Shown here in pieces: positions 5,885 through 20,514 of a DNA stretch of 26,552 bases. Under the pieces are notes generated by a model. The model was given only the letters and a program-made list of their open reading frames with translations. It was not told where the DNA came from and did not search any database. The translations under genes were made by a program, and so were the position numbers. Origin of the DNA: a virus; IMG/VR virus record IMGVR_UViG_3300013372_002806, positions 1 to 26,552 of that record, one strand, 5' to 3'. Numbering within the stretch: position 1 is the stretch's first letter; each line of letters begins with the position of its first letter.

Positions 5885-5894
5885 TGTTTTGTAT

Positions 5895-7502: not shown

Positions 7503-7512
7503 AAAAAAACAA

Positions 7513-7950
7513 ATGATTAACTCTATTTTATTAGTGGATGATGAAGATTTATTCCACTTAGTATTTGAAGACGCATGCAGTCTTTTAGATATAACGCTTT
7601 CATTAGAAAGTTTAGACAGTGCTGACACAGCTGAAACTATGTTTAAAGAGTGGAACGAAAATGGTGATGACTTAAACAAACCAGAATGTGTGTTTGTTGA
7701 TTTAAATATAATTGGTTCATCTTATGATGGTATTGAATTGATTAGAAAAATAAATTTTGAATATGGTAACAATGTTGTTATTGGTATTATATCATCTAGC
7801 GATGAAGCTAACGAGCAAGCAAAAGCCATTCAAGCTGGTGCCCAGTTTTGGATTATAAAATCTGATGAAATTGAACCTAGACTTGAAGAATTTAGAAAAG
7901 ATTACGAAGGTTATAAAAACAAAACAAACCCATTTAAAATCTATAGATAA
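7513..7950 (+). CDS. Stand-alone response regulator receiver
   Basis: A 145-residue receiver domain with no output domain. The acidic pocket is D9-D10 (LLVDDED), the phospho-acceptor D63 (VFVDLN), the switch serine in IISSS (94-96) and the conserved lysine K116 (IIKSD). It begins 10 bases after the kinase stop and its own stop overlaps the next ATG by one base, so it is the kinase partner. Without a DNA-binding domain it must act by protein contact. The obvious candidates are the coiled-coil protein that follows or a host phosphorelay or sigma/anti-sigma factor. Confidence 0.93.
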   Translation: MINSILLVDDEDLFHLVFEDACSLLDITLSLESLDSADTAETMFKEWNENGDDLNKPECVFVDLNIIGSSYDGIELIRKINFEYGNNVVIGIISSSDEANEQAKAIQAGAQFWIIKSDEIEPRLEEFRKDYEGYKNKTNPFKIYR

Positions 7951-8607: not shown

Positions 8608-8640
8608 AAAAAAAGGAGATATTAATATCTCCTTTTTTTT
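8608..8640. terminator. Bidirectional intrinsic terminator
   Basis: GGAGATATTAATATCTCC (8615-8632) is a perfect palindrome flanked by A7 on the left and T8 on the right, so it can end transcripts from both sides. It separates the kinase operon from the convergent gene at 8639-8911. Confidence 0.9.
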
Positions 8641-8911
8641 ATTCTATAATCTCATCATCTTCTTTTTTAGGTGTCTCGTTGGTTGGTTTTTCTTTGCCCC
8701 ATATTTTATCAACACTGGCTAAACCTAAACAACCAAAAGATAACATTGCAACTGCATTAACTAATGTGTCAGCTGGTCTTACGTCATCAGGTGAAAAACT
8801 GTTGGTAAAAAGTGTAATACACAATGTTAAACCAGCAATAATTCCGATAAACCTTTTTGAAGAAAAACTCTTATTCCTGTCTTGGAATATTTCAGTAAAA
8901 AATTTTTTCAT
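8639..8911 (-). CDS. Holin-like two-helix membrane protein (90 aa)
   Basis: It starts MKKFFTEIFQD with a basic amphipathic stretch (RNKSFSSKRF). Two hydrophobic helices follow (about 22-40 and 50-68, with FGCLGLASVDKIW), then an acidic, lysine-rich tail. This is the layout of small holins or holin-like proteins in Bacteroidetes phages. The next minus-strand gene upstream is also a small membrane protein, so the pair may form a lysis module. Holin function is inferred from shape only. Confidence 0.65.
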   Translation of the reverse strand: MKKFFTEIFQDRNKSFSSKRFIGIIAGLTLCITLFTNSFSPDDVRPADTLVNAVAMLSFGCLGLASVDKIWGKEKPTNETPKKEDDEIIE

Positions 8912-10244: not shown

Positions 10245-10315
10245 GGCACGATGGCCGAGTGGTTAGGCAGGGCTCTGCAAAAGCCCGTACACAGGTTCGA
10301 ATCCTGTTCGTGCCT
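10245..10315 (+). tRNA. tRNA-Cys (GCA)
   Basis: Acceptor GGCACGA/TCGTGCC; anticodon arm GGGCT-CTGCAAA-AGCCC giving GCA at 10277-10279; T-arm ACAGG-TTCGAAT-CCTGT. Full cloverleaf, CCA not encoded. It begins 3 bases after a terminator T-run. Confidence 0.93.
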
Positions 10316-10346
10316 CTGAATAAAGCTCAATAAGAGTAATTATTCG

Positions 10347-10370
10347 GCTCATATTAAATAATATATGAGC
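10347..10370 (+). other. 8-bp hairpin between tRNA-Cys and the small zinc protein
   Basis: GCTCATAT (10347-10354) and ATATGAGC (10363-10370) pair perfectly around an 8-base loop. There is no T-run, so it is more likely an RNA processing or stability element than a terminator. GCTCA and its complement also recur nearby (10325, 10386). Confidence 0.45.
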
Positions 10371-10416
10371 TACAAATAACATAAGCGTGAGCTTAAAAGA
10401 ATTAAAATAATAAGAT

Positions 10417-10572
10417 ATGACATTTACATGCGAACATTGCGGAGAATCAATCCTAGGGGTTGCTGCGGTAAATAATGGAAAATTCCTGCATCATAGATGT
10501 GCAAAAGCTTATGAAGAAGCTAAATTAGCTGAAGAAGGCTTAGAAGAAACACCAATGGAAATCGAAGAGTAA
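10417..10572 (+). CDS. Small zinc-binding-type protein (51 aa)
   Basis: MTFTCEHCGESILG gives a CxxC knuckle, and FLHHRCAKAYEE supplies a second H/C pair (H-x-x-C), followed by an acidic tail (GLEETPMEIEE). The spacing fits a single zinc ribbon or treble-clef finger. The gene lies between tRNA genes and is likely on the same transcript. Function unknown; such mini zinc proteins in phages often bind host proteins or nucleic acid. Confidence 0.75.
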   Translation: MTFTCEHCGESILGVAAVNNGKFLHHRCAKAYEEAKLAEEGLEETPMEIEE

Positions 10573-10585
10573 TTATTTCCATTTT

Positions 10586-10670
10586 GGCCGAGTGGTGGAA
10601 TGGTAGACACGCTGGACTTAAAATCCAGTGCTCAGTAATGGGCGTGAGGGTTCGAGTCCCTCCTCGGCTA
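10586..10670 (+). tRNA. tRNA-Leu (TAA)
   Basis: Type II tRNA. Acceptor GGCCGAG/CTCGGCT, D-arm with GGTAGAC, anticodon arm CTGGA-CTTAAAA-TCCAG (anticodon TAA), long variable arm, T-arm GAGGG-TTCGAGT-CCCTC. UUA is the dominant leucine codon in this AT-rich genome. Confidence 0.93.
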
Positions 10671-10682
10671 CAAAATTTAAAT

Positions 10683-10770
10683 GCAGTGGTGGACAAATGG
10701 TAAAGTCGGTAGGTTTAGGCCCTACGGCAAACGTAAGATACAATTGTGGGTTCGAATCCCACCCTCTGTA
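10683..10770 (+). tRNA. tRNA-Leu (TAG)
   Basis: Type II tRNA. Acceptor GCAGTGG/CCTCTGT (one T-T mismatch), D-stem GAC/GTC, anticodon arm GTAGG-TTTAGGC-CCTAC (TAG), T-arm GTGGG-TTCGAAT-CCCAC. Confidence 0.9.
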
Positions 10771-10809
10771 CAAAAAGTAAAGGTATTAATATTTATTCAA
10801 AAATAGTTG

Positions 10810-10819
10810 ATATTTATTA
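10810..10819 (+). promoter_or_regulatory. ATATTTATTA motif (possible late promoter)
   Basis: The motif ends 12 bases before the ATG at 10832. A similar word (ATATTTATTC) lies about 21 bases further upstream. Confidence 0.45.
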
Positions 10820-10831
10820 TAAAATACAAAC

Positions 10832-13159
10832 ATGAAGCTTACCAATATATATAATGAACTTCTTAATGAAGATTTTAAAAGTCAAACAAAAAAATTCATA
10901 TCTCAAGGATTTGACCCTGATATTGTTAAATCATATATCGATAAATTTAAATATATTAGAGATAAAAAATTTAAAGAGATGTTTGACGCAGAAGTCAACA
11001 TTAATGTTCCAATAGATAAAAGAAATGATGTTGATTCATATAAGGATTTTCATGATTTAGAAGTGTTGGTAGATTATGTTGGTGGTAAAAGACCAGTATC
11101 TAGTGCTATTTCTAAACCTACCAATGATATTGATGTATCAGGTGAAGCTGTTTATAAAGATACAAATATTGAAGTGTTTTATGCTGACAATCCTAGAGCA
11201 TGTATTAAATATAAAGGTAGTTTTCCTTATAGTTGGTGTGTAGCCAGGTCAGATTCATCAAATATGTTTTATACTTATAGGTTTAAACCTTATGAACCAG
11301 CTTTCTATTTTATTAAAGATATTCCAGCAACAAAAGAAGAATTTAAAGTTTGGAATTTAGGGAAAACAACATTTAGTGGTAAATTTCAAAATAAATACCA
11401 TTTCTTTGTAATCCAAGTTCCAAAAAATGTTGATTTAAATGATTTAACAACAAAACAATATATTGTTAGCTCAGCTCAAAATGATGGTGATACTCAAATG
11501 AGTTGGGATGAAATTATGTCAATTAACCCTAAGTTAGGACCAGTACATGAAGTATTGCAACCAAAACCATTTACCGAAGCAGAAAGAAAAGAACATGTAA
11601 GATTTAAAAATGGTATTTCTGATATGGAATTTAAAAGACTATCATATGAAGAAAAAAGAAATTATTTAGATATATATCCAACTATTTCCAAACCAATAAC
11701 AAACAATCAATTAACGCAACTTCCAGATGACTTATTAAATTTATATGTTTCATTTGGTATTGGACTAGATGATGAAGGATTTGCATTTATTAAAAATAAA
11801 CCAGCAATTCTTAAAAGATATGCTCAAATAAGCAAAAGAAAGTTTGATGAGTATATGAAACCTAATCAAAGAAATAGATATCAATTAAACCCAGTATACA
11901 CTGAACTTATGGTTTTATCTGATGAAGACATCAAGGCTTTTCTAAATTCATTGACTGGAAAAGAAGTAAGTAGATTTATTGCAACTAATGGTATGGATAA
12001 ATTTGAATTGCTTGAAAAACACTTGGGTGAAAAAGCGGTGCCAGAAGAATTTAAACGTGATAAAGAAATGCTTCTTAGAATAAATGAATTATATATAGAT
12101 GACACGGTAGAAGAAATACAAGAAAGATTACCTGAAGGAATGGGTTTCATTGTATATAGAGGCTTTGTTACCTTAGATTTTAGAAACTACCCAAATGGAT
12201 TAGATGATTTAGATAGTAGTATAACTTATTTTATGAATCAAGCAACTGACCCAGGATATTGGGTATGGGATGATGATAATTATTTTGAAGGTTGGGAAGA
12301 TGGTCTAGAAGAACAAACAAAAAAATATTTACAATTAATCCTAGAAGAAGATGAGGATTTATTCAATCAAGTTAAATCTGTTGGTATTGTTACAAAATCA
12401 ACACCAAGTGAAGCAGTTGATGAATTAATATCATATATAAATGAACATGACGATGTTTTAAAGAAAATTGAAAGTATAATAGAAGAAGAATATTCAACAG
12501 AATCATATAATGCTAAATGGAAAGAAGCCGATGACACATGTGATAAAATAAAAGATGTAATTGAATATCGAGAAAATGATGAAGAGATTATAGTTAAATT
12601 AGATGCTTTTATCTTATTCATTAGAGGAAACCAATTTTTCACAACAGTAGCTGATGATTTTATAGACAATGTTAATTCTATGATGGAAGGTGTATTGGAT
12701 ATTTATGATTTACCAGATAATGAAGATGCTATGAGAGAATGGGTTGATGACACTAATATGGTTGTTGATGATGCAGATATTAAATCAAACATTGTTGAAA
12801 TAATTGAAGAACACATTGAAGAAAATTTATATAATGATGAAGATGAAGAAAATGATAATGAAGATGAAGATGATGTTAAAAGAAAACAAAAACTTGTAAT
12901 TTCATATCTTACAGATACACTTAAAAATATGGGACAAAATCCATATGCTAATATGATTGAAAATGATATGGTTCGTATCGATATTGATAGAAGAAAATTT
13001 AAAATTAATGGACAAGTTTATATTAAACTTAGTGATAAACAAAATGGTAAATCCCATGAAGGTTATGTATTCATTAAAGATTTACCGACATATTTTACCA
13101 ATTATAAATTATTTGAACAAATAAATAAGATTAAAAAAATAATCAATTACAAAAAATAA
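10832..13159 (+). CDS. Large unknown protein with possible capsid-targeting leader (775 aa)
   Basis: The N-terminus MKLTNIYNELLNEDF has the L-L-x-E form shared with the genes at 18467, 19661 and 20008, and fits cleavage by a T4 gp21-type prohead protease after the glutamate. Residues about 100-190 hold a folded-looking, aromatic region (IKYKGSFPYSWCVARSD, then YEPAFYFIKDI). The middle has short repeats built on KR and DEE helices. Residues about 480-690 are extremely acidic (WVWDDDNYFEGWED and an E/D/N run near 670-685). There are no membrane segments. I recognise no family. Possible roles are an internal virion protein or a scaffold; this is inference from the leader and length. Confidence 0.85.
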   Translation: MKLTNIYNELLNEDFKSQTKKFISQGFDPDIVKSYIDKFKYIRDKKFKEMFDAEVNINVPIDKRNDVDSYKDFHDLEVLVDYVGGKRPVSSAISKPTNDIDVSGEAVYKDTNIEVFYADNPRACIKYKGSFPYSWCVARSDSSNMFYTYRFKPYEPAFYFIKDIPATKEEFKVWNLGKTTFSGKFQNKYHFFVIQVPKNVDLNDLTTKQYIVSSAQNDGDTQMSWDEIMSINPKLGPVHEVLQPKPFTEAERKEHVRFKNGISDMEFKRLSYEEKRNYLDIYPTISKPITNNQLTQLPDDLLNLYVSFGIGLDDEGFAFIKNKPAILKRYAQISKRKFDEYMKPNQRNRYQLNPVYTELMVLSDEDIKAFLNSLTGKEVSRFIATNGMDKFELLEKHLGEKAVPEEFKRDKEMLLRINELYIDDTVEEIQERLPEGMGFIVYRGFVTLDFRNYPNGLDDLDSSITYFMNQATDPGYWVWDDDNYFEGWEDGLEEQTKKYLQLILEEDEDLFNQVKSVGIVTKSTPSEAVDELISYINEHDDVLKKIESIIEEEYSTESYNAKWKEADDTCDKIKDVIEYRENDEEIIVKLDAFILFIRGNQFFTTVADDFIDNVNSMMEGVLDIYDLPDNEDAMREWVDDTNMVVDDADIKSNIVEIIEEHIEENLYNDEDEENDNEDEDDVKRKQKLVISYLTDTLKNMGQNPYANMIENDMVRIDIDRRKFKINGQVYIKLSDKQNGKSHEGYVFIKDLPTYFTNYKLFEQINKIKKIINYKK

Positions 13160-13160
13160 C

Positions 13161-13170
13161 ATATTTATTA
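13161..13170 (+). promoter_or_regulatory. ATATTTATTA motif (possible late promoter)
   Basis: Lies directly after the 775-residue gene and 11 bases before the ATG at 13182, the same arrangement as before 10832. Confidence 0.45.
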
Positions 13171-13181
13171 ATAAAAAAATT

Positions 13182-13430
13182 ATGAATTTAAATAAAGAAC
13201 AAATTTTATCTATTATTAGATACACATTAACAACAATAGGTGCAACATTAGTTACAAAAGGAACTATAGATGCTGAAATGATATTACAATTAAGTGGTTC
13301 TATTATGGCATTAGTGTCTGGAATATGGTCAATTATTGATAAAACTGATACTAATATGGCAATTAAAGTTGCTAACTATCAAGCTAAATTAGCTGAAGTA
13401 GCGGCATTAGAAGATGAAAAAGTTAATTAA
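13182..13430 (+). CDS. Holin-like protein (Pam3-gp28-type shape, 82 aa)
   Basis: MNLNKEQILSIIRYTLTTIG leads into two membrane helices (about 8-28 and 34-52, with GSIMALVSGIWSIIDKT) separated by a short turn (KGTIDAE), then an amphipathic helix. The pattern of a helix, K-G-x-I-D, a second helix and a W-S-x-x-D-K turn resembles the Pam3-gp28 family of putative phage holins. It would form pores in the inner membrane at lysis. It is a single gene behind an ATATTTATTA motif. Confidence 0.7.
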   Translation: MNLNKEQILSIIRYTLTTIGATLVTKGTIDAEMILQLSGSIMALVSGIWSIIDKTDTNMAIKVANYQAKLAEVAALEDEKVN

Positions 13431-13452
13431 TTAAAAAATAATTAAAAAAAAC

Positions 13453-13515
13453 TTGACAATTAATAAAATATTCGTATATTTGCATATATTTATTAATCAA
13501 ACGGGGAAACCCTTA
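13453..13515 (+). promoter_or_regulatory. Promoter and leader hairpin of tRNA block 2
   Basis: TTG 13453-13455, exactly 19 bases, TATATTTG 13475-13482, a perfect consensus. The leader hairpin GGG-GAAA-CCC follows at about 13504-13512. Bases 13445-13509 are identical to 16627-16691. Confidence 0.92.
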
Positions 13516-13527
13516 AAATAAAAAACA

Positions 13528-13611
13528 ATGAGAACATTAACTAACATATTTGACAACGCATTTTTTGCAGCCGAAGAGGATTACTCTTTGGAAGGTCAAG
13601 CATTGTCATAA
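13528..13611 (+). CDS. Leader ORF of tRNA block 2 (27 aa)
   Basis: Starts MRTLTNIFDNAFFAAEEDYS and ends GQALS. It lies in the position taken by the other two tRNA-block leader ORFs: right after the leader hairpin and before an intrinsic terminator. The three peptides share no clear sequence, so translation itself, rather than the product, may matter. Whether it is expressed is not shown by the sequence. Confidence 0.45.
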   Translation: MRTLTNIFDNAFFAAEEDYSLEGQALS

Positions 13612-13638
13612 GTTAACGTTTAAAATAACTAAAGATAA

Positions 13639-13669
13639 AAAGCCTGACCTAATAAGTCAGGCTTTTTTT
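13639..13669 (+). terminator. Intrinsic terminator or attenuator before tRNA-Phe
   Basis: AAAGCCTGAC (13639-13648) pairs with GTCAGGCTTT (13656-13665), followed by a T-run to 13669. tRNA-Phe starts 15 bases later. Confidence 0.88.
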
Positions 13670-13683
13670 ATGGAATAATAATT

Positions 13684-13755
13684 GGTGCTGTAACTCAGAG
13701 GTAGAGTGTCGCCCTGAAGAGGCGATGGTCGTGGGTTCGAATCCCACTGGCACCA
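13684..13755 (+). tRNA. tRNA-Phe (GAA)
   Basis: Acceptor GGTGCTG/TGGCACC, D-arm ACTC..GAGT, anticodon arm TCGCC-CTGAAGA-GGCGA (GAA), T-arm GTGGG-TTCGAAT-CCCAC. Confidence 0.93.
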
Positions 13756-13757
13756 CA

Positions 13758-13835
13758 AAAGACAAATAGACCACACCTAGGGTTAGTGATTTAATTAAAG
13801 GGTCCATTCAGTATACAAGGCTGAAATTTGTCTTT
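13758..13835 (+). ncRNA. tRNA-sized three-way-junction element
   Basis: AAAGACAAAT (13758-13767) and ATTTGTCTTT (13826-13835) pair perfectly over 10 bp and enclose GACC/GGTC (13769-13772 with 13801-13804) and TTCAG/CTGAA (13807-13811 with 13821-13825). It fills the whole gap between tRNA-Phe and tRNA-Glu. It does not fold as a standard tRNA. It could be a processed small RNA or a decayed tRNA. Confidence 0.5.
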
Positions 13836-13838
13836 CAT

Positions 13839-13911
13839 GGCCTCATCGTCTAGTTGGTCAGGACGTGCCCCTTTCACGGGTAAAACACGGGTTCGAATCC
13901 CGTTGAGGCTA
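13839..13911 (+). tRNA. tRNA-Glu (TTC)
   Basis: Acceptor GGCCTCA/TGAGGCT, D-arm GTCTAGTTGGTCAGGAC, anticodon loop CTTTCAC (TTC), T-arm ACGGG-TTCGAAT-CCCGT. Confidence 0.93.
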
Positions 13912-13919
13912 CTAAAATT

Positions 13920-13991
13920 GGTCTATTGGTGAAAAAGTTATCATCCAACACTGTCACTGTTGAGTAGACGGAGCGTTACCGTCATAGACCG
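13920..13991 (+). tRNA. tRNA-Asp (GTC), atypical T-loop
   Basis: Acceptor GGTCTAT/ATAGACC, D-arm GTGA..TCAT, anticodon arm CAACA-CTGTCAC-TGTTG (GTC), T-stem GACGG/CCGTC with loop AGCGTTA instead of TTCGANN. Discriminator G73 is the usual Asp identity base, which supports the call despite the odd T-loop. Confidence 0.8.
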
Positions 13992-14008
13992 CACAGATGA
14001 GACTGTTA

Positions 14009-14046
14009 CTAATTCATAGAACTACATATTGTTAGCGTAGAATTAG
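14009..14046 (+). other. Hairpin between tRNA-Asp and tRNA-Ala
   Basis: CTAATTC (14009-14015) pairs perfectly with GAATTAG (14040-14046), with an inner CTAC/GTA helix. ACAG/CTGT forms a smaller hairpin just before it (13993-14006). No gene is seen here. Confidence 0.4.
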
Positions 14047-14052
14047 AAAATT

Positions 14053-14126
14053 GGGGGCACATGTACCAAGGCTGGCGAGAAATACTTGCAATATTTCTGA
14101 GAAGATTTCGATTATCTTTGTCTCCA
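14053..14126 (+). tRNA. tRNA-Ala (TGC)
   Basis: Acceptor GGGGGCA/TGTCTCC (two G-U pairs), anticodon arm AAATA-CTTGCAA-TATTT (TGC), T-arm AAGAT-TTCGATT-ATCTT. The D-arm is weak and base 8 is C rather than T, so charging by the host is uncertain. Confidence 0.75.
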
Positions 14127-14135
14127 CTCGGCAAT

Positions 14136-14223
14136 CTCTGGTAATTTTATTTACTAGATAAAGGTTAAAAACATAGGTAAAAACAGATATTTTAAATTCT
14201 ATCTGGTAACCTCTGGTAATTTT
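14136..14223 (+). repeat. 13-bp direct repeats 75 bp apart
   Basis: CTCTGGTAATTTT occurs at 14136-14148 and 14211-14223. A partial third copy (CTGGTAAC) lies at 14203. Between them CAGATA (14184-14189) and TATCTG form a hairpin. The spacing of about one tRNA suggests a tRNA lost or eroded between two copies. Confidence 0.6.
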
Positions 14224-14295
14224 GGGAGATACTTTAATTGGTTAGAAGGCCACCTAGACGGGTGGTAGTGTAGGGTTCGAAACCCTCTCTCTCAA
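14223..14295 (+). tRNA. tRNA-like gene, anticodon uncertain
   Basis: Acceptor TGGGAGA/TCTCTCA, D-arm CTTT-AATTGGTTAG-AAGG and a TTCGAAA T-loop on an AGGG/CCCT stem are clear. The anticodon arm CCACC-TAGACG-GGTGG has only six loop bases, so no anticodon can be assigned. One missing base (real, or a sequencing error) would explain it. Confidence 0.6.
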
Positions 14296-14333
14296 CAAAT
14301 TAGAAAAAACTTTAAAAAAGTTTAAATAAAAAC

Positions 14334-14364
14334 TTGTTTAATTTAAAAGTTATGTATATATTTG
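14334..14364 (+). promoter_or_regulatory. Internal promoter in tRNA block 2
   Basis: TTG 14334-14336, 20 bases, TATATTTG 14357-14364. RNA would begin about 14368, just before the structured element at 14379. Unlike the block-opening promoters it has no GC leader hairpin, tiny ORF or terminator. Confidence 0.8.
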
Positions 14365-14378
14365 CATAAATAAAAAAG

Positions 14379-14453
14379 GGTTAGTTCTATGAGGGGTTGT
14401 AAAAAGATAATCATAGGGAATTATGTCAGAAGTCCTACAGACATAACTAATCA
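14379..14453 (+). ncRNA. tRNA-sized three-way junction at the start of a transcript
   Basis: GGTTAGT (14379-14385) pairs over 7 bp with ACTAATC (14446-14452), leaving a single unpaired base like a tRNA discriminator. Inside are CTATGA/TCATAG (14387-14392 with 14411-14416) and TATGTC/GACATA (14422-14427 with 14440-14445, 12-base loop). There is no standard D or T arm. It may be a leader-RNA structure or a highly altered tRNA. Confidence 0.5.
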
Positions 14454-14530
14454 TATAGGGAAATATATCAGTTGGTAGAATATGGGCACTTTATAGAGCC
14501 TATAGGTCGCAACTCTGGTTCCTCTTGCCA

Positions 14531-14602
14531 AGTAAAGTATCTCAACTGGATAGAGACCCTGCTTGGAGCAGGATGATACGAGTTCGAATCTCGTCTTTAC
14601 AC
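14531..14602 (+). tRNA. tRNA, probably Pro (TGG), compact anticodon stem
   Basis: Acceptor GTAAAG/CTTTAC (first pair mismatched), D-stem TCTC/GAGA, T-arm ACGAG-TTCGAAT-CTCGT. The anticodon arm reads CCTG-CTTGGAG-CAGG, giving TGG with U33, but only four stem pairs if the loop is seven bases. A clearer Pro(TGG) gene is at 16885, so this may be diverging. Confidence 0.65.
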
Positions 14603-14621
14603 TAATTTTAAATTTAATACT

Positions 14622-14795
14622 ATGGCAACAGCTGCAAAACGTTCTAGACAGTCTAGAGTAATTACAATGCTTGAGAAGCAATTAAAAAGTGGTGTAAAAA
14701 CCAAAAAGAAAACAACGGATGTTAAAGTTCCTTTGACAGATTCTGATATCAAAAGAATCAACAAAGAAATTGAGACTCTAAACAAAAGCTTATAA
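14622..14795 (+). CDS. Small basic helical protein (57 aa)
   Basis: Starts MATAAKRSRQSRVITMLEKQ, continues through KTKKKTTDVK and ends in a helix (IKRINKEIETLNKSL). It is rich in lysine, arginine and threonine at the start, which suggests nucleic-acid or phosphate binding. The stop overlaps the next ATG by one base (TAATG), so it is coupled to the gene at 14795. It directly follows a tRNA on the same transcript. No family recognised. Confidence 0.7.
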   Translation: MATAAKRSRQSRVITMLEKQLKSGVKTKKKTTDVKVPLTDSDIKRINKEIETLNKSL

Positions 14796-15136
14796 TGAAA
14801 GCAGATTTTAGAAAAACAGAATATTACACTTCTTATAACGCTAATAAGCCAGTAGAATTGGATAGTTCAAAGTTTCCCGATTTCAAAGGTGAAACTGAAG
14901 AAGATTTTTTAGAGTATATTTCAGAAAATTTAGATGAATGGACCAATACTGACGAAGATTTACCTTTTGATGAGGAAACTATGGATGCATTATATGAATT
15001 ACAAAATGGTTCTATGGTAGAGTATTGGGGTTCATATAGAAATTATTTCGAAGGTGACCTTCAAATAGGTAAAGAAACACCAGAAGATAACTATAAAAGT
15101 GGTAATTTTCTAGTGAATCATTCAGTATCAATTTAA
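14795..15136 (+). CDS. Acidic protein of unknown function (113 aa)
   Basis: Starts MKADFRKTEYYTSYNANKP. It is strongly acidic (EETEEDFLEYI-like stretches, TDEDLPFDEE) with aromatic residues in the second half (MVEYWGSYRNYFEGD). It is coupled to the basic gene before it by a one-base overlap. An acidic and a basic partner in one operon might bind each other, but nothing proves it. Confidence 0.7.
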   Translation: MKADFRKTEYYTSYNANKPVELDSSKFPDFKGETEEDFLEYISENLDEWTNTDEDLPFDEETMDALYELQNGSMVEYWGSYRNYFEGDLQIGKETPEDNYKSGNFLVNHSVSI

Positions 15137-15183
15137 AAATAAAGATAAAAAAAGATTATTTCAGCAACAAAAAATCTATAACC

Positions 15184-15268
15184 TATTAAGCTCGTTGTCG
15201 TTGGTTCGAGTCCAACCATGTGTATCTTGATGAAAAGCATGTAGCTCAGTTGGTTAGAGCACGAAAAA
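15184..15268 (+). tRNA. Possible permuted tRNA: 3' half before 5' half
   Basis: First comes a tRNA 3' half: T-arm GTTGG-TTCGAGT-CCAAC (15200-15216), acceptor strand CATGTGT (15217-15223) and base A. After 10 bases comes a tRNA 5' half: acceptor strand AAGCATG (15235-15241), TA, and D-arm GCTC-AGTTGGTTA-GAGC. GCATG can pair with CATGT (four Watson-Crick pairs and one wobble), and ACGA (15261-15264) can pair with TCGT (15192-15195) as an anticodon stem. Neither half has another partner nearby. Two unrelated tRNA fragments is the alternative. Confidence 0.4.
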
Positions 15269-15269
15269 G

Positions 15270-15415
15270 AAAAAAGTTAATCTTGTTATCGCATAAAGTT
15301 TCCTTGTTCTATACAAAATAAGGTGGTGGACGTTGATGGTTAACCATTGACCCCAAAATCCACGAATTAACGTGGTGTTAATGATGTCAAAATTAATAAC
15401 GGATGTATGTCCATG
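15270..15415 (+). other. Non-coding stretch with hairpins
   Basis: No gene is seen. It holds the palindrome ATGGTTAACCAT (15336-15347), the hairpin CCACG-AATTAA-CGTGG (15360-15375), and a further TTAAT/ATTAA pairing after it. It lies between the permuted tRNA-like locus and the long Leu-like tRNA. Confidence 0.4.
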
Positions 15416-15537
15416 TGATAAGTGGCGAAACTGGTAGACGCAATGGTGAGTTAAACGAAGGGACTATCCTAAACCTCATCCTCATTTGGAGGACAACTGT
15501 TGGATATTTAATGTAGGTTCGAACCCTATCTTATCAA
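15416..15537 (+). tRNA. Enlarged Leu-like tRNA (about 122 nt), possible insertion
   Basis: The ends are standard: acceptor TGATAAG/CTTATCA, Leu-type D-arm GCG-AAACTGGTAGA-CGC, T-arm GTAGG-TTCGAAC-CCTAT. The middle is about 35 bases too long. GGTGA (15444) and TCATC could form an anticodon stem around GTTAAAC plus about 19 extra bases (anticodon TAA). AATGG/TCATT is an alternative stem. An intron-like insertion or a hairpin insertion (TCCTC/GAGGA) would explain it. Anticodon not certain. Confidence 0.55.
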
Positions 15538-15598
15538 CTATATTACTTTTACATATTTTAAAATTATTTAGATAAAACAAATAACTAATATATTTATA

Positions 15599-15632
15599 AA
15601 TAACCACTAGATTCATTTTTAGTGGTTATTTT
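15599..15632 (+). terminator. Intrinsic terminator ending tRNA block 2
   Basis: AATAACCACTA (15599-15609) pairs over 11 bp with TAGTGGTTATT (15620-15630), followed by a short T-rich tail. It lies after the last tRNA of the block and before the membrane-protein gene. Confidence 0.7.
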
Positions 15633-15695
15633 AGTAAATAAGATTTGTTTAATAAATAACTTAAACAATGACCATTAAACACAAATATATGGATA

Positions 15696-16142
15696 GTGAT
15701 AGTAGAAGCGATAAACAGGAAAGTCTTGGGGACAGTTTGCCTAATGACAGCGACATTCCTGAACCCTTTGGGTTTCGACATATTGGTTTACAAACTGACA
15801 GAATTAACGAAAGATTATTGGCATACAATGTTCGTACTTTATGGATTTGCATTCCTCTCGTTTATATTATCGTTTCTTTCATTTAAATTAAATAATAAAA
15901 CTTTAGGTAATAGCTTAATGACGATAGCATTATTTCTAAATCCTTTGGGTTATGATTTAGTAGTTTATTGGATTAATTCCTTAACGAAAGATTATTGGAT
16001 GACAATAAGTATAATGTATATGTTAGCAGGGTTTTTCTTTGCATTATTTATGTACTTTTATAATATTAATCCTATGCTTGCATTTAAATATCATTCAATT
16101 AAAACACGAAATAATATAAAACGTAAATTAAAAGGTAAATAA
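15696..16142 (+). CDS. Four-helix membrane protein with internal duplication (148 aa)
   Basis: Two tandem repeats are visible: LGTVCLMTATFLNPLGFDIL to TKDYWHTMFVLYG, and LGNSLMTIALFLNPLGYDLV to TKDYWMTISIMYM. Each has two membrane helices with F-L-N-P-L-G-(F/Y)-D and L-T-K-D-Y-W as landmarks. The frame opens without an ATG; GTG at 15696 is the likely start, though an upstream ATG at 15668 lies in another frame and could point to a frameshift. A basic tail ends the chain. The next gene starts one base after its stop, so they are coupled. No transporter family is recognised. Confidence 0.75.
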   Translation: MIVEAINRKVLGTVCLMTATFLNPLGFDILVYKLTELTKDYWHTMFVLYGFAFLSFILSFLSFKLNNKTLGNSLMTIALFLNPLGYDLVVYWINSLTKDYWMTISIMYMLAGFFFALFMYFYNINPMLAFKYHSIKTRNNIKRKLKGK

Positions 16143-16143
16143 A

Positions 16144-16581
16144 ATGGAAAACTTTGATGACCTCTTTAATAAATTCTTTGGTAAAAAGAAAAAAGAAGAA
16201 GAAAAATTTATAGATAAAGAAGCCAAAAAAATTATTGATATGATTAATAGTTTTAAAAATATTAATGGTGATGGTAATTATACTGGTGAAGAATTAGAAA
16301 AACTTGATGACGAATTAGAAATTAAATTAGGTGAACCAGATGAAATAGAATATTCTACTGATGGTGAAATGTATTTTGAAAAACGTATGTGGTATAATCC
16401 GTTAGGTGTGATAATTAAAACTCTAGTTAGTGATGAACCACTTGAACCAGAATTACCTCTAGAAGAACAATTGGAAAAAGCTATTAGTGTTGAAAATTAT
16501 GAGTTAGCAGCTGAATTAAGAGATAAAATCAAAAAAGCTGTGGCTAAAGAAAAAAGAAGATTAAAAAAGTTAAATACTTAA
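16144..16581 (+). CDS. Acidic protein with C-terminal UVR-like motif (145 aa)
   Basis: The N-terminus (MENFDDLFNKFFGKKKKEEE) is charged and helical. Residues about 110-135 read LEEQLEKAISVENYELAAEL followed by RDKIKKA, the UVR (UvrB/UvrC interaction) coiled-coil motif also found in McsA and Clp-related proteins. It probably mediates contact with a host protein such as UvrB/UvrC or a Clp protease. The middle is acidic and includes YFEKRMWYNPLG. It is coupled to the membrane protein before it. Confidence 0.75.
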   Translation: MENFDDLFNKFFGKKKKEEEKFIDKEAKKIIDMINSFKNINGDGNYTGEELEKLDDELEIKLGEPDEIEYSTDGEMYFEKRMWYNPLGVIIKTLVSDEPLEPELPLEEQLEKAISVENYELAAELRDKIKKAVAKEKRRLKKLNT

Positions 16582-16634
16582 AGTACATATATTCAGTGGT
16601 TTAAAAAATAATATTAAATTTTTAATAAAAAAAC

Positions 16635-16697
16635 TTGACAATTAATAAAATATTCGTATATTTGCATATATTTATTAATCAAACGGGGAAAACCCCA
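16635..16697 (+). promoter_or_regulatory. Promoter and leader hairpin of tRNA block 3
   Basis: TTG 16635-16637, 19 bases, TATATTTG 16657-16664, then GGGG-AAAA-CCCC at 16685-16696. Identical to the block 2 promoter over 65 bases; the loop and right arm of the hairpin differ by compensating changes. Confidence 0.92.
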
Positions 16698-16712
16698 CAA
16701 AAATTAGAAACA

Positions 16713-16811
16713 ATGATGACAACAAAAACATATCAAAAACAGTATCAACCTAAAGGCGGAACGCCTCAAGGCACAACTGGGTATGTCATGAAGTCAAACA
16801 TGATAAAATAA
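16713..16811 (+). CDS. Leader ORF of tRNA block 3 (32 aa)
   Basis: Starts MMTTKTYQKQYQPKGGTPQG and ends MKSNMIK. Polar and basic, with no membrane segment, so unlike the block 1 peptide. Same location relative to leader hairpin and terminator as the other two leader ORFs. Expression not shown. Confidence 0.45.
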   Translation: MMTTKTYQKQYQPKGGTPQGTTGYVMKSNMIK

Positions 16812-16835
16812 AACAATACGCAAGTATTATTTGTT

Positions 16836-16869
16836 AACCCAGTTAGAGAAATCTAAACTGGGTTTTTTT
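16836..16869 (+). terminator. Intrinsic terminator or attenuator before tRNA-Pro
   Basis: AACCCAGTT (16836-16844) pairs with AACTGGGTT (16856-16864), with an inner AGA-GAAA-TCT cap, followed by a T-run to 16869. tRNA-Pro begins 16 bases later. Confidence 0.88.
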
Positions 16870-16884
16870 ATGCAACAAAATAAA

Positions 16885-16957
16885 CTAGATGTGGGAAAGT
16901 TGGAAATCCGCTACACTTGGACCGTAGAGACCGCAAGTTCGAATCTTGCCATTTAGA
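16885..16957 (+). tRNA. tRNA-Pro (TGG)
   Basis: Acceptor CTAGATG/CATTTAG with the C1-G72 pair typical of proline, D-stem GGA/TCC, anticodon arm CTACA-CTTGGAC-CGTAG (TGG, one A-C mismatch), T-arm GCAAG-TTCGAAT-CTTGC. Confidence 0.85.
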
Positions 16958-17017
16958 CAAATAGAATAAAATAAAAATTATGAAAAATATAAAGAAGATA
17001 AAGAAACAGGTATAACT

Positions 17018-17054
17018 CTCTAAAAATTAGAGGGTGATACAATATGCCCTCTAA
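17018..17054 (+). promoter_or_regulatory. Alternative hairpins overlapping the tRNA-Lys acceptor
   Basis: TTAGAGGG (17027-17034) can pair with CTCTAA (17018-17023) or, over 8 bp, with CCCTCTAA (17047-17054). The latter is the 5' acceptor strand of tRNA-Lys. The three pairings exclude each other, so the region could act as a folding switch or a processing control. Confidence 0.5.
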
Positions 17055-17116
17055 GCTTTAAGGTGAAGCACGATACTTTTAATATCGGGAAAACGGTCCA
17101 ATACCGTTAGGGGGTA
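17046..17116 (+). tRNA. tRNA-Lys (TTT), atypical T-loop
   Basis: Acceptor GCCCTCT/AGGGGGT, D-arm GCTT-TAAGGTG-AAGC, anticodon arm CGATA-CTTTTAA-TATCG (TTT), T-stem AACGG/CCGTT with loop TCCAATA. Base 8 is A rather than T. All stems pair, so it is likely real although standard search tools may score it low. Confidence 0.78.
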
Positions 17117-17120
17117 CAAA

Positions 17121-17158
17121 GTGTTCATTATAATTGCATGTTCAAGTACAATGAACGC
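17121..17158 (+). other. 9-bp hairpin between tRNA-Lys and tRNA-Gly
   Basis: GTGTTCATT (17121-17129) pairs with AATGAACGC (17150-17158) around a 20-base loop. AATGAAC recurs at 17167-17173. No ORF or T-run. Confidence 0.45.
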
Positions 17159-17188
17159 TAAGAAATAATGAACAAAAAATAAAACAAC

Positions 17189-17261
17189 GCAGTGTTCGCA
17201 TAGTGGCTATTGTGCCTGACTTCCAATCAGGAGTTCGTGAGTTCGAGTCTCACACGCTGCA
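17189..17261 (+). tRNA. tRNA-Gly (TCC)
   Basis: Acceptor GCAGTGT/ACGCTGC, anticodon arm CCTGA-CTTCCAA-TCAGG (TCC), T-arm GTGAG-TTCGAGT-CTCAC. Confidence 0.92.
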
Positions 17262-17268
17262 CAAATTT

Positions 17269-17340
17269 TGAAGTATAATGTAACGGTTAGCATTACTGGT
17301 TTTGAGCCAGTCCGTCTAGGTTCGAATCCTAGTACTTCAA
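17269..17340 (+). tRNA. tRNA-Gln (TTG)
   Basis: Acceptor TGAAGTA/TACTTCA, D-stem ATGT/GCAT, anticodon arm ACTGG-TTTTGAG-CCAGT (TTG), T-arm CTAGG-TTCGAAT-CCTAG. The U1-A72 end pair is typical for glutamine. Confidence 0.93.
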
Positions 17341-17344
17341 CTAA

Positions 17345-17407
17345 AGAATGGTTTCAGCAAGTTAACAAACATCAAATTTTTACTTTGAATCGTAACATGC
17401 CATTCTG
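17345..17407 (+). ncRNA. Mini-tRNA-like element (63 nt) with no T-arm
   Basis: AGAATGG (17345-17351) pairs perfectly with CCATTCT (17400-17406), and TCAAA-TTTTTAC-TTTGA forms a perfect 5-bp, 7-base-loop arm that would read TTT if it is an anticodon. No T-arm and only a poor D-arm are possible. It resembles armless mitochondrial tRNAs, or may be an unrelated small RNA. Confidence 0.45.
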
Positions 17408-17412
17408 TATTT

Positions 17413-17483
17413 GGGGACAACAGGCAAGGTGCCGAGCAGGTCTGTAAAACCTCACTGGGATGGTTCGATTCCATCTGGCCCCA
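17413..17483 (+). tRNA. tRNA-Tyr (GTA), short variable loop
   Basis: Acceptor GGGGACA/TGGCCCC (one mismatch), D-stem GGC/GCC, anticodon arm AGGT-CTGTAAA-ACCT (GTA), T-arm GATGG-TTCGATT-CCATC. Bacterial Tyr tRNAs normally have a long variable arm; this one does not. Confidence 0.8.
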
Positions 17484-17489
17484 CAAAAA

Positions 17490-17547
17490 ATCGCTGACTT
17501 AAATGTCAAAGGAGTGTAATGATATCAACTCAAATAAGGTAAGCGAT
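17490..17547 (+). ncRNA. Three-way-junction element between tRNA-Tyr and tRNA-Thr
   Basis: ATCGCT (17490-17495) pairs with AGCGAT (17542-17547), enclosing TGAC-TTAAAT-GTCA and GAGT/ACTC (12-base loop with the palindrome TGATATCA). It fills the gap between two tRNAs and lacks tRNA hallmarks. Confidence 0.4.
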
Positions 17548-17561
17548 ACCATCTCATTTTT

Positions 17562-17633
17562 GCACATATAGTTTAACAGGAAAAATAGAGGATTTGTAAC
17601 CCTCAGTTGTCGGGTCAGTTCCGTCTATGTGCT
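17562..17633 (+). tRNA. tRNA-Thr (TGT)
   Basis: Acceptor GCACATA/TATGTGC, D-stem GTTT/AAAT, anticodon arm GAGGA-TTTGTAA-CCCTC (TGT, one A-C mismatch), T-stem GTCGG/CCGTC with loop GTCAGTT in place of TTCGANN. Confidence 0.75.
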
Positions 17634-17664
17634 CTAATAATTTAATAAATAACTTATCATTTAT

Positions 17665-17694
17665 TTGGTGGGTTATTTTTTTTTATTATCTTTG
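17665..17694 (+). promoter_or_regulatory. Bacteroidetes-type promoter
   Basis: TTG 17665-17667, 19 bases, TATCTTTG 17687-17694, followed 24 bases later by the ATG at 17719. It rules out the longer TTG-initiated reading from 17665. Confidence 0.85.
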
Positions 17695-17718
17695 TGCTTT
17701 AATTATAAAAATACAAAA

Positions 17719-18255
17719 ATGAGTTTTCTAAGTGAAGGTAAAGAAACTGAATTAGAATTTGGTTCATTGTTTAAAAATTTTGATTTTAGTTCTAAAGAAG
17801 AAGATATTAATGAACATTGGGATTTAAAAATTTCTTTTAAATATGATGTTAAATCAGTTAAAAAAATTAGCAGAAACGATTTATATCCAAATGAATTATA
17901 TCATTTTATTGAAATTAAAAATGTTAATGGTGATAATGGTTGGTTATACGGTGATGCTGATTATTTTGTTTTTGAAACATTTAAATATTTTATAATTGTG
18001 TCAAAAGAAAAATTACAAAAATTTATTGGTGAAAATATTATTAAAACTTATGTAACTACTCCAGATAAATCCTTATATTGTTTATATTCTAGAGAAAATA
18101 AAAAAGATATAATAACTATGGTAACATCAATAGATTTATGTGTTATTTCTGAAAGTATAAAACATAAACAAAATACACCTTATATTTTAATTGGTGAAAG
18201 TGTTATCCCTGAAAAAAGAGCAAAAGAAAGATTAGAAAAATTATTTGATAAATAA
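17719..18255 (+). CDS. Possible PD-(D/E)XK-fold protein (178 aa)
   Basis: Starts MSFLSEGKETELEFG. HWDLKI is followed by KYDVKSVKKI, with a D-x-K at the end of a strand. HFIEIKNVNG, GWLYGDADYF and FIIVSKEKLQKF come next. This order (D-V-K, E-I-K, then a G-x-A-D-Y-x-x-F block) is seen in phage proteins with a restriction-endonuclease-like fold. A nuclease acting on DNA ends or junctions is plausible, but I cannot confirm the metal-binding set. It has its own promoter and forms a single-gene unit. Confidence 0.7.
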   Translation: MSFLSEGKETELEFGSLFKNFDFSSKEEDINEHWDLKISFKYDVKSVKKISRNDLYPNELYHFIEIKNVNGDNGWLYGDADYFVFETFKYFIIVSKEKLQKFIGENIIKTYVTTPDKSLYCLYSRENKKDIITMVTSIDLCVISESIKHKQNTPYILIGESVIPEKRAKERLEKLFDK

Positions 18256-18263
18256 TAATCAAC

Positions 18264-18273
18264 ATATTTATTA
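18264..18273 (+). promoter_or_regulatory. ATATTTATTA motif (possible late promoter)
   Basis: Lies 14 bases before the ATG at 18288, in the gap after the previous stop. A variant, ATATTTATAT (18445-18454), lies before the gene at 18467. Confidence 0.45.
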
Positions 18274-18287
18274 GGAAACTAAATATT

Positions 18288-18401
18288 ATGTCAAAATCAA
18301 GAAAACCAGGGAAACCTAAAGCAAACAGAGGTAATCAAGTAAAAAGAAATGCTGTGATTAAAAAGAATGAAGAAATTCTTTCTAGATTGAAAAATCAATA
18401 A
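18288..18401 (+). CDS. Very basic small protein (37 aa)
   Basis: MSKSRKPGKPKANRGNQVKR is followed by a short helix (IKKNEEILSRLKN). It is lysine/arginine-rich with a flexible start, like nucleic-acid-binding or DNA-packaged phage peptides such as the 48-residue protein at 20539. It sits between an ATATTTATTA motif and a strong terminator, so it is a unit of its own. Confidence 0.7.
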   Translation: MSKSRKPGKPKANRGNQVKRNAVIKKNEEILSRLKNQ

Positions 18402-18405
18402 TAAG

Positions 18406-18430
18406 AATCCATGTGAAAACATGGATTTTT
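18406..18430 (+). terminator. Intrinsic terminator
   Basis: AATCCATGT (18406-18414), loop GAAA, ACATGGATT (18419-18427), then a T-run. The ATG inside the hairpin (18411) is not a gene start. Confidence 0.9.
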
Positions 18431-18466
18431 TATTTTAATGTTGTATATTTATATATAAAACATAAA

Positions 18467-19657
18467 ATGATAAAACATTTATTAAAAGAATCATTATATA
18501 GTGTTTATGTGAATAAACGATTGACTGAAGGTGCTGAAGACCATCCAGAAACAAAGACTAGTTGTGTATCACCACAAGCGTTAGCTAATGATATGAATGC
18601 AGAAATAGAAAGATTAAAAATTTCAGGTAAAGATAGAACTAGTAGAGGTAAAAAAGATGTTATATATCATACAAAACATGCTAAACAAGTTTTAACAAAC
18701 AGTGGTGAGTTAAATGTTGATAAATTTAAAAGCTTAATAACTGAATATCCTAAAACTATTTTTGATAAAAATCCTAAGATGGAAAAAAGTGATATTGGTA
18801 AATCTCAATTTACTGTTAATACTGGTTTACCAGCAATAAACGGTATCGTATATGATAAATCAGATAATCAATTTAAACATATAAATACTTGTCCTGGTGC
18901 TGGTGCGTGTCAATTAGTTTGTTATGCTAGAAAAGGATTTTATGGTATGAATGATGGTAAAATCCTTAAATTAATAAGGAGATTAAATCTACTTTGGAAT
19001 GACCCAGAAGAATATTACAATATGATAATGGATGAATTGGAACCACTTGCTCTTAAATTAAAAAGACAGGGTAGAAGAGAAGGAATAGTTGACCAATTAG
19101 TTATTAGATGGAATGATGCTGGTGATTTCTTTAGTGATAAATATTTTGAAATTGCTAAACGTGTTACTGCTGATTTATTAGATTCTGGTTTTGATGTTAA
19201 ATCTTATGCTTATACAAAACAAGCTAAATATATTAATTTAGCTGATGATAACTTCATTTTAAACTTTTCTAAAGGTTCTCATGAAAGAGAATTAAGACAA
19301 GTTGATTTAGAAAAAACAAAATATTCAGATGTAGTTCAAAGAATAGATACTGAAGGTAATAAAATGTTTAGTGATTTATTTACCAAAGGTTTTGACCAAA
19401 AAACTGGGAAGGATAAAAAATACGATATAAATCCAAAAACTGGTTTACCTAATTTCGTTCCTGGTGGTGCTGAAGAATTAAAAAGAAGAATTTCAAAGCA
19501 ATATAATATTCCTTTAGATAGACTTAAATATCAATTTGAATTACCAAACGAAGAAAATAAAAAATTTAAATACGATGTTATTGTATTACCAACTGGTGAT
19601 AGTGATATTGCAGCACAAAGAATGGATGTGCATAAAACATTTTTATTAATACATTAA
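18467..19657 (+). CDS. Gp88-like protein with possible capsid-targeting leader (396 aa)
   Basis: The start MIKHLLKESLYS matches the L-x-E leader rule. Residues about 105-215 contain SQFTVNTGLPA, INTCPGAGACQLVCYARKG, NLLWNDPEEY and IRWNDAGDFFS followed by SYAYTK. This is the signature of the phage gene-product-88 family: cysteines in C-P-G-x-G-x-C-x-x-x-C-Y-A-R, then the R-x-(H/N)-D-x-G-D-F motif. The biochemical role of that family is not known to me; the cysteines suggest metal or cluster binding. The C-terminal part (GGAEELKRRISKQY) is helical. The next gene begins 3 bases later. Confidence 0.82.
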   Translation: MIKHLLKESLYSVYVNKRLTEGAEDHPETKTSCVSPQALANDMNAEIERLKISGKDRTSRGKKDVIYHTKHAKQVLTNSGELNVDKFKSLITEYPKTIFDKNPKMEKSDIGKSQFTVNTGLPAINGIVYDKSDNQFKHINTCPGAGACQLVCYARKGFYGMNDGKILKLIRRLNLLWNDPEEYYNMIMDELEPLALKLKRQGRREGIVDQLVIRWNDAGDFFSDKYFEIAKRVTADLLDSGFDVKSYAYTKQAKYINLADDNFILNFSKGSHERELRQVDLEKTKYSDVVQRIDTEGNKMFSDLFTKGFDQKTGKDKKYDINPKTGLPNFVPGGAEELKRRISKQYNIPLDRLKYQFELPNEENKKFKYDVIVLPTGDSDIAAQRMDVHKTFLLIH

Positions 19658-19660
19658 AAC

Positions 19661-20008
19661 ATGAAAGAATTAATTAAACAACTATTAAGAGAACAAGAAG
19701 AAAAAGAATCTAATTTTGAGGAATTTGCTCAAAAAAGATTTGATGGTGCTTCAAAAATAAGTGAAAATGCAAAAGAAAAAGGTGGTGCTGCTATGTTAAC
19801 TTATCACCATTTCATAGTTAAATTACCTTACTATAAAAAAGCATCTGAAGGTAAATTTGATATCAAAGAATCTAAAATTGATTTTAAAGAAAATTTAGAT
19901 AAATTATGTGAATTAACTAAAGATGTTGATATGGAACAAATAGAATTTCAAAAGTTAGTAGGGATAATAGAAGTTCTTGGTGAATTAATAATTAAAAAAG
20001 GTAAATAA
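19661..20008 (+). CDS. Small helical protein with L-L-R-E leader (115 aa)
   Basis: The N-terminus MKELIKQLLREQEEKES is nearly the same as that of the next protein (MKKLIKKLLREN), although the rest differs. This suggests a shared targeting leader rather than a shared fold. The remainder is helical and charged, with GGAAMLTYHHFIVKLPYY in the middle. No family recognised. It lies between the Gp88-like and GNAT genes in one operon (3-base gap before, one-base overlap after), and may be packaged in the head with them. Confidence 0.8.
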   Translation: MKELIKQLLREQEEKESNFEEFAQKRFDGASKISENAKEKGGAAMLTYHHFIVKLPYYKKASEGKFDIKESKIDFKENLDKLCELTKDVDMEQIEFQKLVGIIEVLGELIIKKGK

Positions 20009-20514
20009 TGAAAAAATTAATTAAAAAATTACTTAGGGAAAATTTAGATGAAGATATCAAATTCTTTGATGTAAAAGATGATGAAGATGGTTGGGATAAA
20101 ACAAACATTATAATTACTAATGAAAAAGATGAACCTGTTGGGTATGCAATCCTTAATTTCAAGATGGATAGTGATGAATACGTTACTAGTAGTTATGAAG
20201 ACCCAGATGCTGAATATGTTGACCCAGACATGGGTAGACACTTTCCACATGGTAACGCTGCTAAATTAAACCATATAGAAATATATGAGAAATATAGAGG
20301 TGATAACGTAAAAAGGTATGGTTCTCAACTTATGAATGCTATCTTACAACGTTGTAAAGAAAAAAACATTAAAACAATATTCCTTAATGCTACACCAGTT
20401 GGGCCTGAACCTAGACCAACTATTGAAGATTTGCTTAGATACTATCGTAGATTTGGATTTGAAGTTATTAAAATTGCTGGGGCTCATGATATGGTTTCAC
20501 AAATAAAACAATAA
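20008..20514 (+). CDS. GNAT acetyltransferase with L-L-R-E leader (168 aa)
   Basis: After the leader MKKLIKKLLREN the protein shows the GNAT order: a strand pair (NIIITNEKDEPVGYAILNF), NHIEIYEKYRGDNVKRYGSQ (acetyl-CoA loop in a variant R-G-x-x-V-x-x-x-G form), LMNAILQRC, then IKTIFLNATP and YYRRFGFEVI (motif B). It would transfer an acetyl group to a protein, small molecule or tRNA-linked substrate; the target is unknown. If the leader is cleaved it may be an injected enzyme that modifies host proteins early in infection. Confidence 0.85.
   Translation: MKKLIKKLLRENLDEDIKFFDVKDDEDGWDKTNIIITNEKDEPVGYAILNFKMDSDEYVTSSYEDPDAEYVDPDMGRHFPHGNAAKLNHIEIYEKYRGDNVKRYGSQLMNAILQRCKEKNIKTIFLNATPVGPEPRPTIEDLLRYYRRFGFEVIKIAGAHDMVSQIKQ

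Follow-up and report, generated by a model that had tools for sequence, protein, structure and literature searches.

The internal proteins of phage T4 carry a capsid-targeting sequence (CTS) of 10 residues, MKTYQEFIAE. In the T4 CTS, targeting has been found to depend on residues 4 and 7 and cleavage on residues 8 and 10, and capsid targeting by short propeptides has been proposed as general in T4-like phages (PMC9026906). The CTS is present on the internal proteins IPI-III and on Alt, of which Alt is an injected ADP-ribosyltransferase (ART) and IPI an anti-restriction protein (PMC9026906, PMC3012670). The capsid-targeting signal of P1 DarB is also N-terminal and brings this injected anti-restriction protein into the head of a myophage (PMC9024508), and the head ejection proteins of SPN3US and phiKZ are packaged, ejected and trimmed by a prohead protease (PMC5694885, PMC10052503). 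In addition, a survey of MuF fusions and gene neighbourhoods predicted head-packaged ART, NUDIX and Macro proteins, with myophages pre-loading NAD/ADPr enzymes (PMC9503650); a term search of that paper found no mention of capsid targeting. For few phages is it known which proteins are injected, although these are the first to act against host defences.

The stretch of DNA analysed here, referred to as the window, is an entire IMG/VR record of 26,552 bases. Its leaders resemble the T4 CTS in being N-terminal and about 10 residues long, in having hydrophobic residues six, three and two positions before a Glu at the predicted cut (E-6, E-3 and E-2) and in being carried by unrelated proteins, and relatives of the window encode an S77 protease and a gp23 propeptide with a similar cut site. 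Many leader proteins of these relatives are ADP-ribosyltransferases, as is T4 Alt. Unlike the T4 system, however, the leaders are predicted from sequence, in very divergent metagenomic phages with T4-type heads and up to 595 kb in size, and they differ in sequence, fall into lineage dialects, often have tandem sites and are carried by more and other cargoes. For DarB the first 30 residues suffice, as shown by truncation and reporter fusion, and the LLxE register has not been described, whereas the propeptides of SPN3US and phiKZ are mostly long (about 80-130 residues), with another site (such as SQE) and an S80 instead of an S77 protease. The survey of head-packaged enzymes relied on domain fusions and context, whereas here the tag itself marks the cargo. 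No paper on lineage-specific leader dialects, or on their use to read injected proteins, was found in the open-access literature.

Leader-bearing proteins in the window

The first-pass annotation had claimed that four unrelated proteins start with L-L-x-E leaders, and all four N-termini were confirmed, at the ATG codons at positions 10832, 18467, 19661 and 20008. The first is a 775-residue protein with the leader MKLTNIYNELLNE (10832..10870, plus strand, as for all four), a predicted cut after E13 and a body that begins DFKSQ (10871..13159) and is without known fold or family; only a sub-threshold family match was obtained, the AlphaFold model was poor (mean pLDDT 47), and the body has 96% identity in L003 and 34-66% elsewhere. 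The second, a Gp88-like protein of 396 residues, has the leader MIKHLLKE (18467..18490) with a predicted cut after E8, and its body, which begins SLYSV (18491..19657), matched PF17338 (GP88; E 2.2e-23; 83.7 bits versus a curated cut-off of 24.4). Its reading frame extends back to a GTG at 18413; the Gp88 starts of relatives, however, align at the ATG at 18467. The third is a helical protein of 115 residues with the leader MKELIKQLLRE (19661..19693), predicted to be cut after E11, and a body that begins QEEKE (19694..20008). This protein matched no Pfam family; in its AlphaFold model (mean pLDDT 79) the body is helical and the leader helix is of low confidence (54-64), and no convincing PDB match was found for the model. 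The fourth is a GNAT acetyltransferase of 168 residues with the leader MKKLIKKLLRE (20008..20040), again predicted to be cut after E11, and its body, beginning NLDED (20041..20514), matched PF00583 above the curated cut-off (29.3 versus 20.7 bits). The bodies of the four proteins are mutually unrelated. Candidate second sites, absent from the earlier annotation, were seen as RLTE at residue 21 of the Gp88-like protein (ending at 18529) and LDE at residue 15 of the GNAT protein (ending at 20052), and these resemble the tandem sites of relatives.

Counted back from the Glu, residues 4, 7, 8 and 10 of the T4 CTS correspond to E-6, E-3, E-2 and E, and all four window leaders are hydrophobic at the first three of these positions (Y7/L10/L11/E13 at 10832, I2/L5/L6/E8 at 18467, and I5/L8/L9/E11 at both 19661 and 20008). 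Register and shuffle tests were adopted because loose regular expressions yielded no more than about 1.5- to 9-fold enrichment and produced many chance matches. The T4-derived pattern matched 5 of the 30 window proteins versus 0.36 expected when each N-terminus was shuffled (p about 0.002, the floor of 600 composition-preserving shuffles), and a stricter basic 'LLxE' pattern matched 3 of 30 versus 0.1-0.3 expected. One of the five matches (27-482, MTHFQEVLAE) was rejected as a false positive because its homologues are of ~470 aa and its frame is open to the contig edge, so that the match lies inside a protein truncated by that edge; therefore four of the matches are taken as real.

Two other regions of the window were also recorded. 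A small membrane-type protein (8639-8911, minus strand) begins in a leader-like way with MKKFFTEIFQD, where relatives read MKEFIKDIFTED and the window copy has Asp; as a member of a small membrane-protein family, it was left out of the leader-bearing set. In T4 IPIII, Asp at the cut position allows targeting and blocks cleavage (PMC9026906). At 5889-7950 (plus strand) a PAS/histidine-kinase-like protein and, after it, a response regulator (PF00072) look like a two-component pair; G016 has homologues of the two, with identities of 57% and 79%.

Leader dialects in related phages

The leader pattern is loose, and its excess over shuffles in single relatives spanned 11-fold to none. No significant excess for the T4 register was found in G023, G022, G025 and G017, for which dialects that differ from this register could perhaps account. 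The excess of leaders persisted under both within-protein and column shuffles, and in most relatives the N-termini within one genome were more alike than internal-Met controls. Single-linkage clustering of N-termini was tried for defining the dialects and rejected as too loose, with lipoprotein signal peptides emerging as a class. T4 late-promoter-like TATAAATA boxes were not consistently found upstream of leader genes.

In several families the leader varied between phages while the body was kept. Among six homologues of the 775-aa protein, residues 1-11 are variable, and N12-E13 and F15-K16 are invariant. The homologue in LR756511 has the leader MEFREWFRSAETRTINE, matching the FxEW/F dialect of its own genome, in which other proteins start MDFREWYDLNE, MRTFQEFFMAKE, MKTFKEFAALKE and MRTTFLEFMGLKE. 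Similarly, the 115-aa family has a conserved body behind the leaders MKELIKQLLRE (window), MKLFDVILE (G023) and MRLLELLRE (Flavobacterium phage immuto gp082), and the GNAT orthologue in L002 (88%) retained a leader, MKKLIKQLLRE. At least 80 viral contigs contained relatives of Gp88, with leaders as diverse as MRFKDFF, MRTKDQIILENLY, MKLTELKQLIKE, MKKFIKGLLRE and others. The Gp88 leader was closer to unrelated N-termini of its own record than to those of other records (n=58 records) with z=8.8, a value that is inflated because related genomes are not independent, and 0 of 20,000 permutations were as high as observed. We consider it very likely that the leaders are interchangeable modules with lineage dialects, and thus that cargo moved between phages would adopt the local leader.

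Two leader-bearing families have orthologues that begin where the leader ends. In the CCA/polyA polymerase family that adjoins Gp88, the leader forms are MKEFIRNRIRESLIME/NRVKFSIPIP, MKDFIRNKVRKGLINE/NRVKVDIPIP and MKDNIKQILREGLIRE/ERIKFDLRIP (the stroke marks the junction), and the orthologues without a leader read M/RVKFNLQVP and MNTK/RIKFNLPIP. The Acb1-like proteins with a leader read MKIGDKFKEVLNE/AAGHKYGCVM, MNIRKLVRKALLTE/AEKKDHKHEYGCLM and MDIRKRLRMALLNE/GAHKNEYGCVM, and the leaderless ones start at MNRHVEKGCLM. In the pairs of both families the predicted cut coincides with the module boundary. The CCA/polyA polymerase at L105:12431-13582, together with its homologues, forms a natural plus/minus pair, with a leader in some phages and none in relatives.

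Head machinery and cargo of the relatives

The window, a 26.5-kb fragment of a phage genome, holds no complete head gene, only a small capsid-like segment, and therefore the protease and head machinery were sought in relatives. The closest of these, G001 and G028 (74-84%), are both short; G011 (353 kb) and G016 each share 16 window proteins, at a mean identity of 44% and at 55% identity, respectively. Peptidase_S77, the family of T4 gp21, was found in 9 of the 29 relative records and in 0 of 14 control genomes. In G011 the gene order is T4-type portal (Portal_T4), S77 protease (75 bits), scaffold-like protein and Gp23, and an S77 prohead protease is encoded by LR756511 as well. An alignment of seven proteases showed the ELDHP...SH and SSRG blocks in most of them and a diverged version in G020. 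The N-terminal stretches of the capsid proteins of G011, G023, G013, G022, L070/L083 and LR756511 end HLLNE, YMLNE, HMLNE, HMINE, QLLDE and RLFNE, when the putative propeptide ends, all in relatives and outside the window, are placed by the T4 gp23 cut position. Judged by their sequence, these predicted propeptide ends and the leaders have one kind of site in common.

Small proteins with a capsid segment were seen in the window and in relatives. In the window protein at 3714-4271 (plus strand), residues 79-124 are 65% identical (E 1e-13) to residues 368-413 of the G011 gp23 capsid protein, and small gp23-segment proteins are also encoded at G028:23155, G003:104319, G003:44375 and G001:21783 (all minus strand), those of G001 and G003 carrying a different capsid segment, near residues 73-121. 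They may be capsid mimics, decoys or split capsid genes.

The Pfam domains among 83 leader-bearing representatives, a set that contains some chance members, included ART-PolyVal, PARP, GNAT, Acb1, 2'-5' RNA ligase-like, NUDIX, SprT and lysozyme-type domains, and the control set from the same genomes had chiefly replication, capsid, chaperone and metabolic families. ART-PolyVal proteins were found six times in relatives of the window, each time with a leader (two in G011 and one each in G005, G008, where it is weak, G016 and G019). In L002, the nearest cousin of the leader stretch, three consecutive genes encode an Acb1-like protein (scoring above the Pfam cut-off), Gp88 and GNAT, all of them with a leader. 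Judging from these domains, the cargo across relatives looks like one for early host take-over and counter-defence, comprising ADP-ribosyltransferases, Acb1-like anti-CBASS phosphodiesterases, acetyltransferases, NUDIX and tRNA-repair enzymes. Searched with PADLOC, the leader proteins returned a small number of matches, most of them weak. The window itself has 13 tRNA genes at 10245-17634, interleaved with leader and other genes, and relatives encode leader-bearing CCA/polyA polymerase and kinase-like proteins; together these give hints of pre-loaded tRNA-repair enzymes.

The position of some leader genes beside head genes fits the capsid-targeting reading. In LR756511 (595 kb) the head module includes the gene for the 775-aa homologue (1076 aa), a few kb from the protease, scaffold and capsid genes. 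In Flavobacterium phage immuto, an isolate, the genes for the 115-aa homologue and for about ten leader-like proteins, including MKKSQLRQIIKEAL and MENFDLKKFLVENKL, are directly upstream of terminase-portal-protease-capsid. Alternatively, the leader-bearing proteins might be components of scaffold or core assembly, with sites that serve their degradation, and not injected effectors; T4 core proteins are likewise cut by gp21 (PMC9026906), and some of the immuto proteins adjoin the protease. However, no assembly role is expected of GNAT, Gp88, ART, Acb1-like, NUDIX and polyA-polymerase domains, and such cargo domains differ between close relatives. We consider this explanation unlikely for the set, and a scaffold or core role possible for the 775-aa and 115-aa proteins.

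Virion proteins of other T4-like phages

For the T4-like cyanophage S-CREM2, a distant relative, a virion proteome of 52 proteins by mass spectrometry has been published (PMC10665884, Table 3). The T4-derived CTS pattern matched 7 of its 219 ORFs, and five of the seven are virion proteins (Fisher p=0.009; p=0.024 with a looser pattern), namely a SAM hydrolase (MKDFDSFLEE), an APH-like kinase ((V/M)KRFDAFLTE), a cytidylyltransferase (MKNFSSFLTE) and two small proteins. In a virion-associated Cas9-like protein, LRFASFMAE occurs some 20 residues from the start. As many of the virion proteins detected by mass spectrometry are without a leader, the leader is not the sole route into the virion. In S-SCSM1 the virion protein NMNAT starts MKSFLQFLKE (virion data from PMC9602691), and no enrichment was found in a 40-kb stretch of this phage, where one of four matches was in the virion (p=0.46). 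A search for virion proteomics of the window's phage or its close relatives found none, and the Baltic Flavobacterium phage paper contains none for immuto.

These virion data also bear on targeting to a place other than the head. As basic amphipathic N-terminal helices, the leaders could direct proteins to the inner membrane, the replication compartment or the nucleoid; MKKLIKKLLRE is indeed basic and amphipathic, and AlphaFold gave the 115-aa protein an N-terminal helix, at low confidence. However, the same families also bear leaders in other dialects, which lack a strongly basic character (MKNKDQILLENLY, MRFKDFF, MENFDLKKFLVEN) and keep the xE end, the site is common to capsid propeptides, and proteins of the leader type were found in S-CREM2 virions, which leaves this explanation quite improbable. 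Weaker still, and hardly credible, is a functionless resemblance by shared ancestry or codon bias, in which AT-rich genomes favour Met-Lys-Lys-Leu-Ile starts and neighbours share them by duplication or recombination: Lys/Leu/Ile-rich starts are frequent in these genomes and the pattern is short, with one chance match in the window (27-482), but the excess holds against within-protein and column shuffles and internal-Met controls, S-CREM2 with a G+C content of 48% still uses the T4 register, and the same families keep leaders across divergent phages while the sequence shifts to the local dialect. Both explanations are disfavoured because neither accounts for the dialect matching or the capsid sites.

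Conclusions

The earlier claim that the leaders are T4-like capsid-targeting sequences gained support from the lineage-matched leaders, their gain and loss at the predicted junction, the relatives' gp21-type protease and LLNE-type capsid propeptides, the Alt-like cargo and the virion mass spectrometry in another T4-like phage. We therefore consider it very likely that the leaders are T4-type capsid-targeting propeptides, with cargo that is cut by the S77 protease, kept in the head and injected. The four window proteins are, going by their leaders, probably packaged in the virus particle, and by analogy with T4 they are probably injected with the DNA. In the proposed mechanism, cargo would be made with an N-terminal helix of 8-15 residues that docks on the core of the assembling prohead, as inferred from T4. 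The S77 prohead protease, which like its sites is seen in relatives, would then cut the [ILF][LI]xE site behind its Glu, at the maturation stage that also trims the capsid protein at its LLNE-type site. The mature cargo would remain in the head with the DNA and enter the host at infection, where the GNAT protein of the window may acetylate a host target.

More broadly, and with somewhat better than even confidence, we propose that head loading in large T4-type phages is general and modular: the dialect of each lineage is matched to its core and protease, and the product of any cargo gene is pre-loaded once the gene has gained a leader, among such products anti-CBASS (Acb1-like), ADP-ribosylating and tRNA-repair enzymes. 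The leader-protease pairs described here form a large natural set for studying cargo choice. If the leader marks cargo, Acb1-like anti-CBASS proteins and ARTs would be placed in the virion in some lineages. If the proposal is true, the pre-loaded enzymes would act ahead of any phage gene expression, and the injected proteome of uncultured T4-type phages would be predictable from their genomes.
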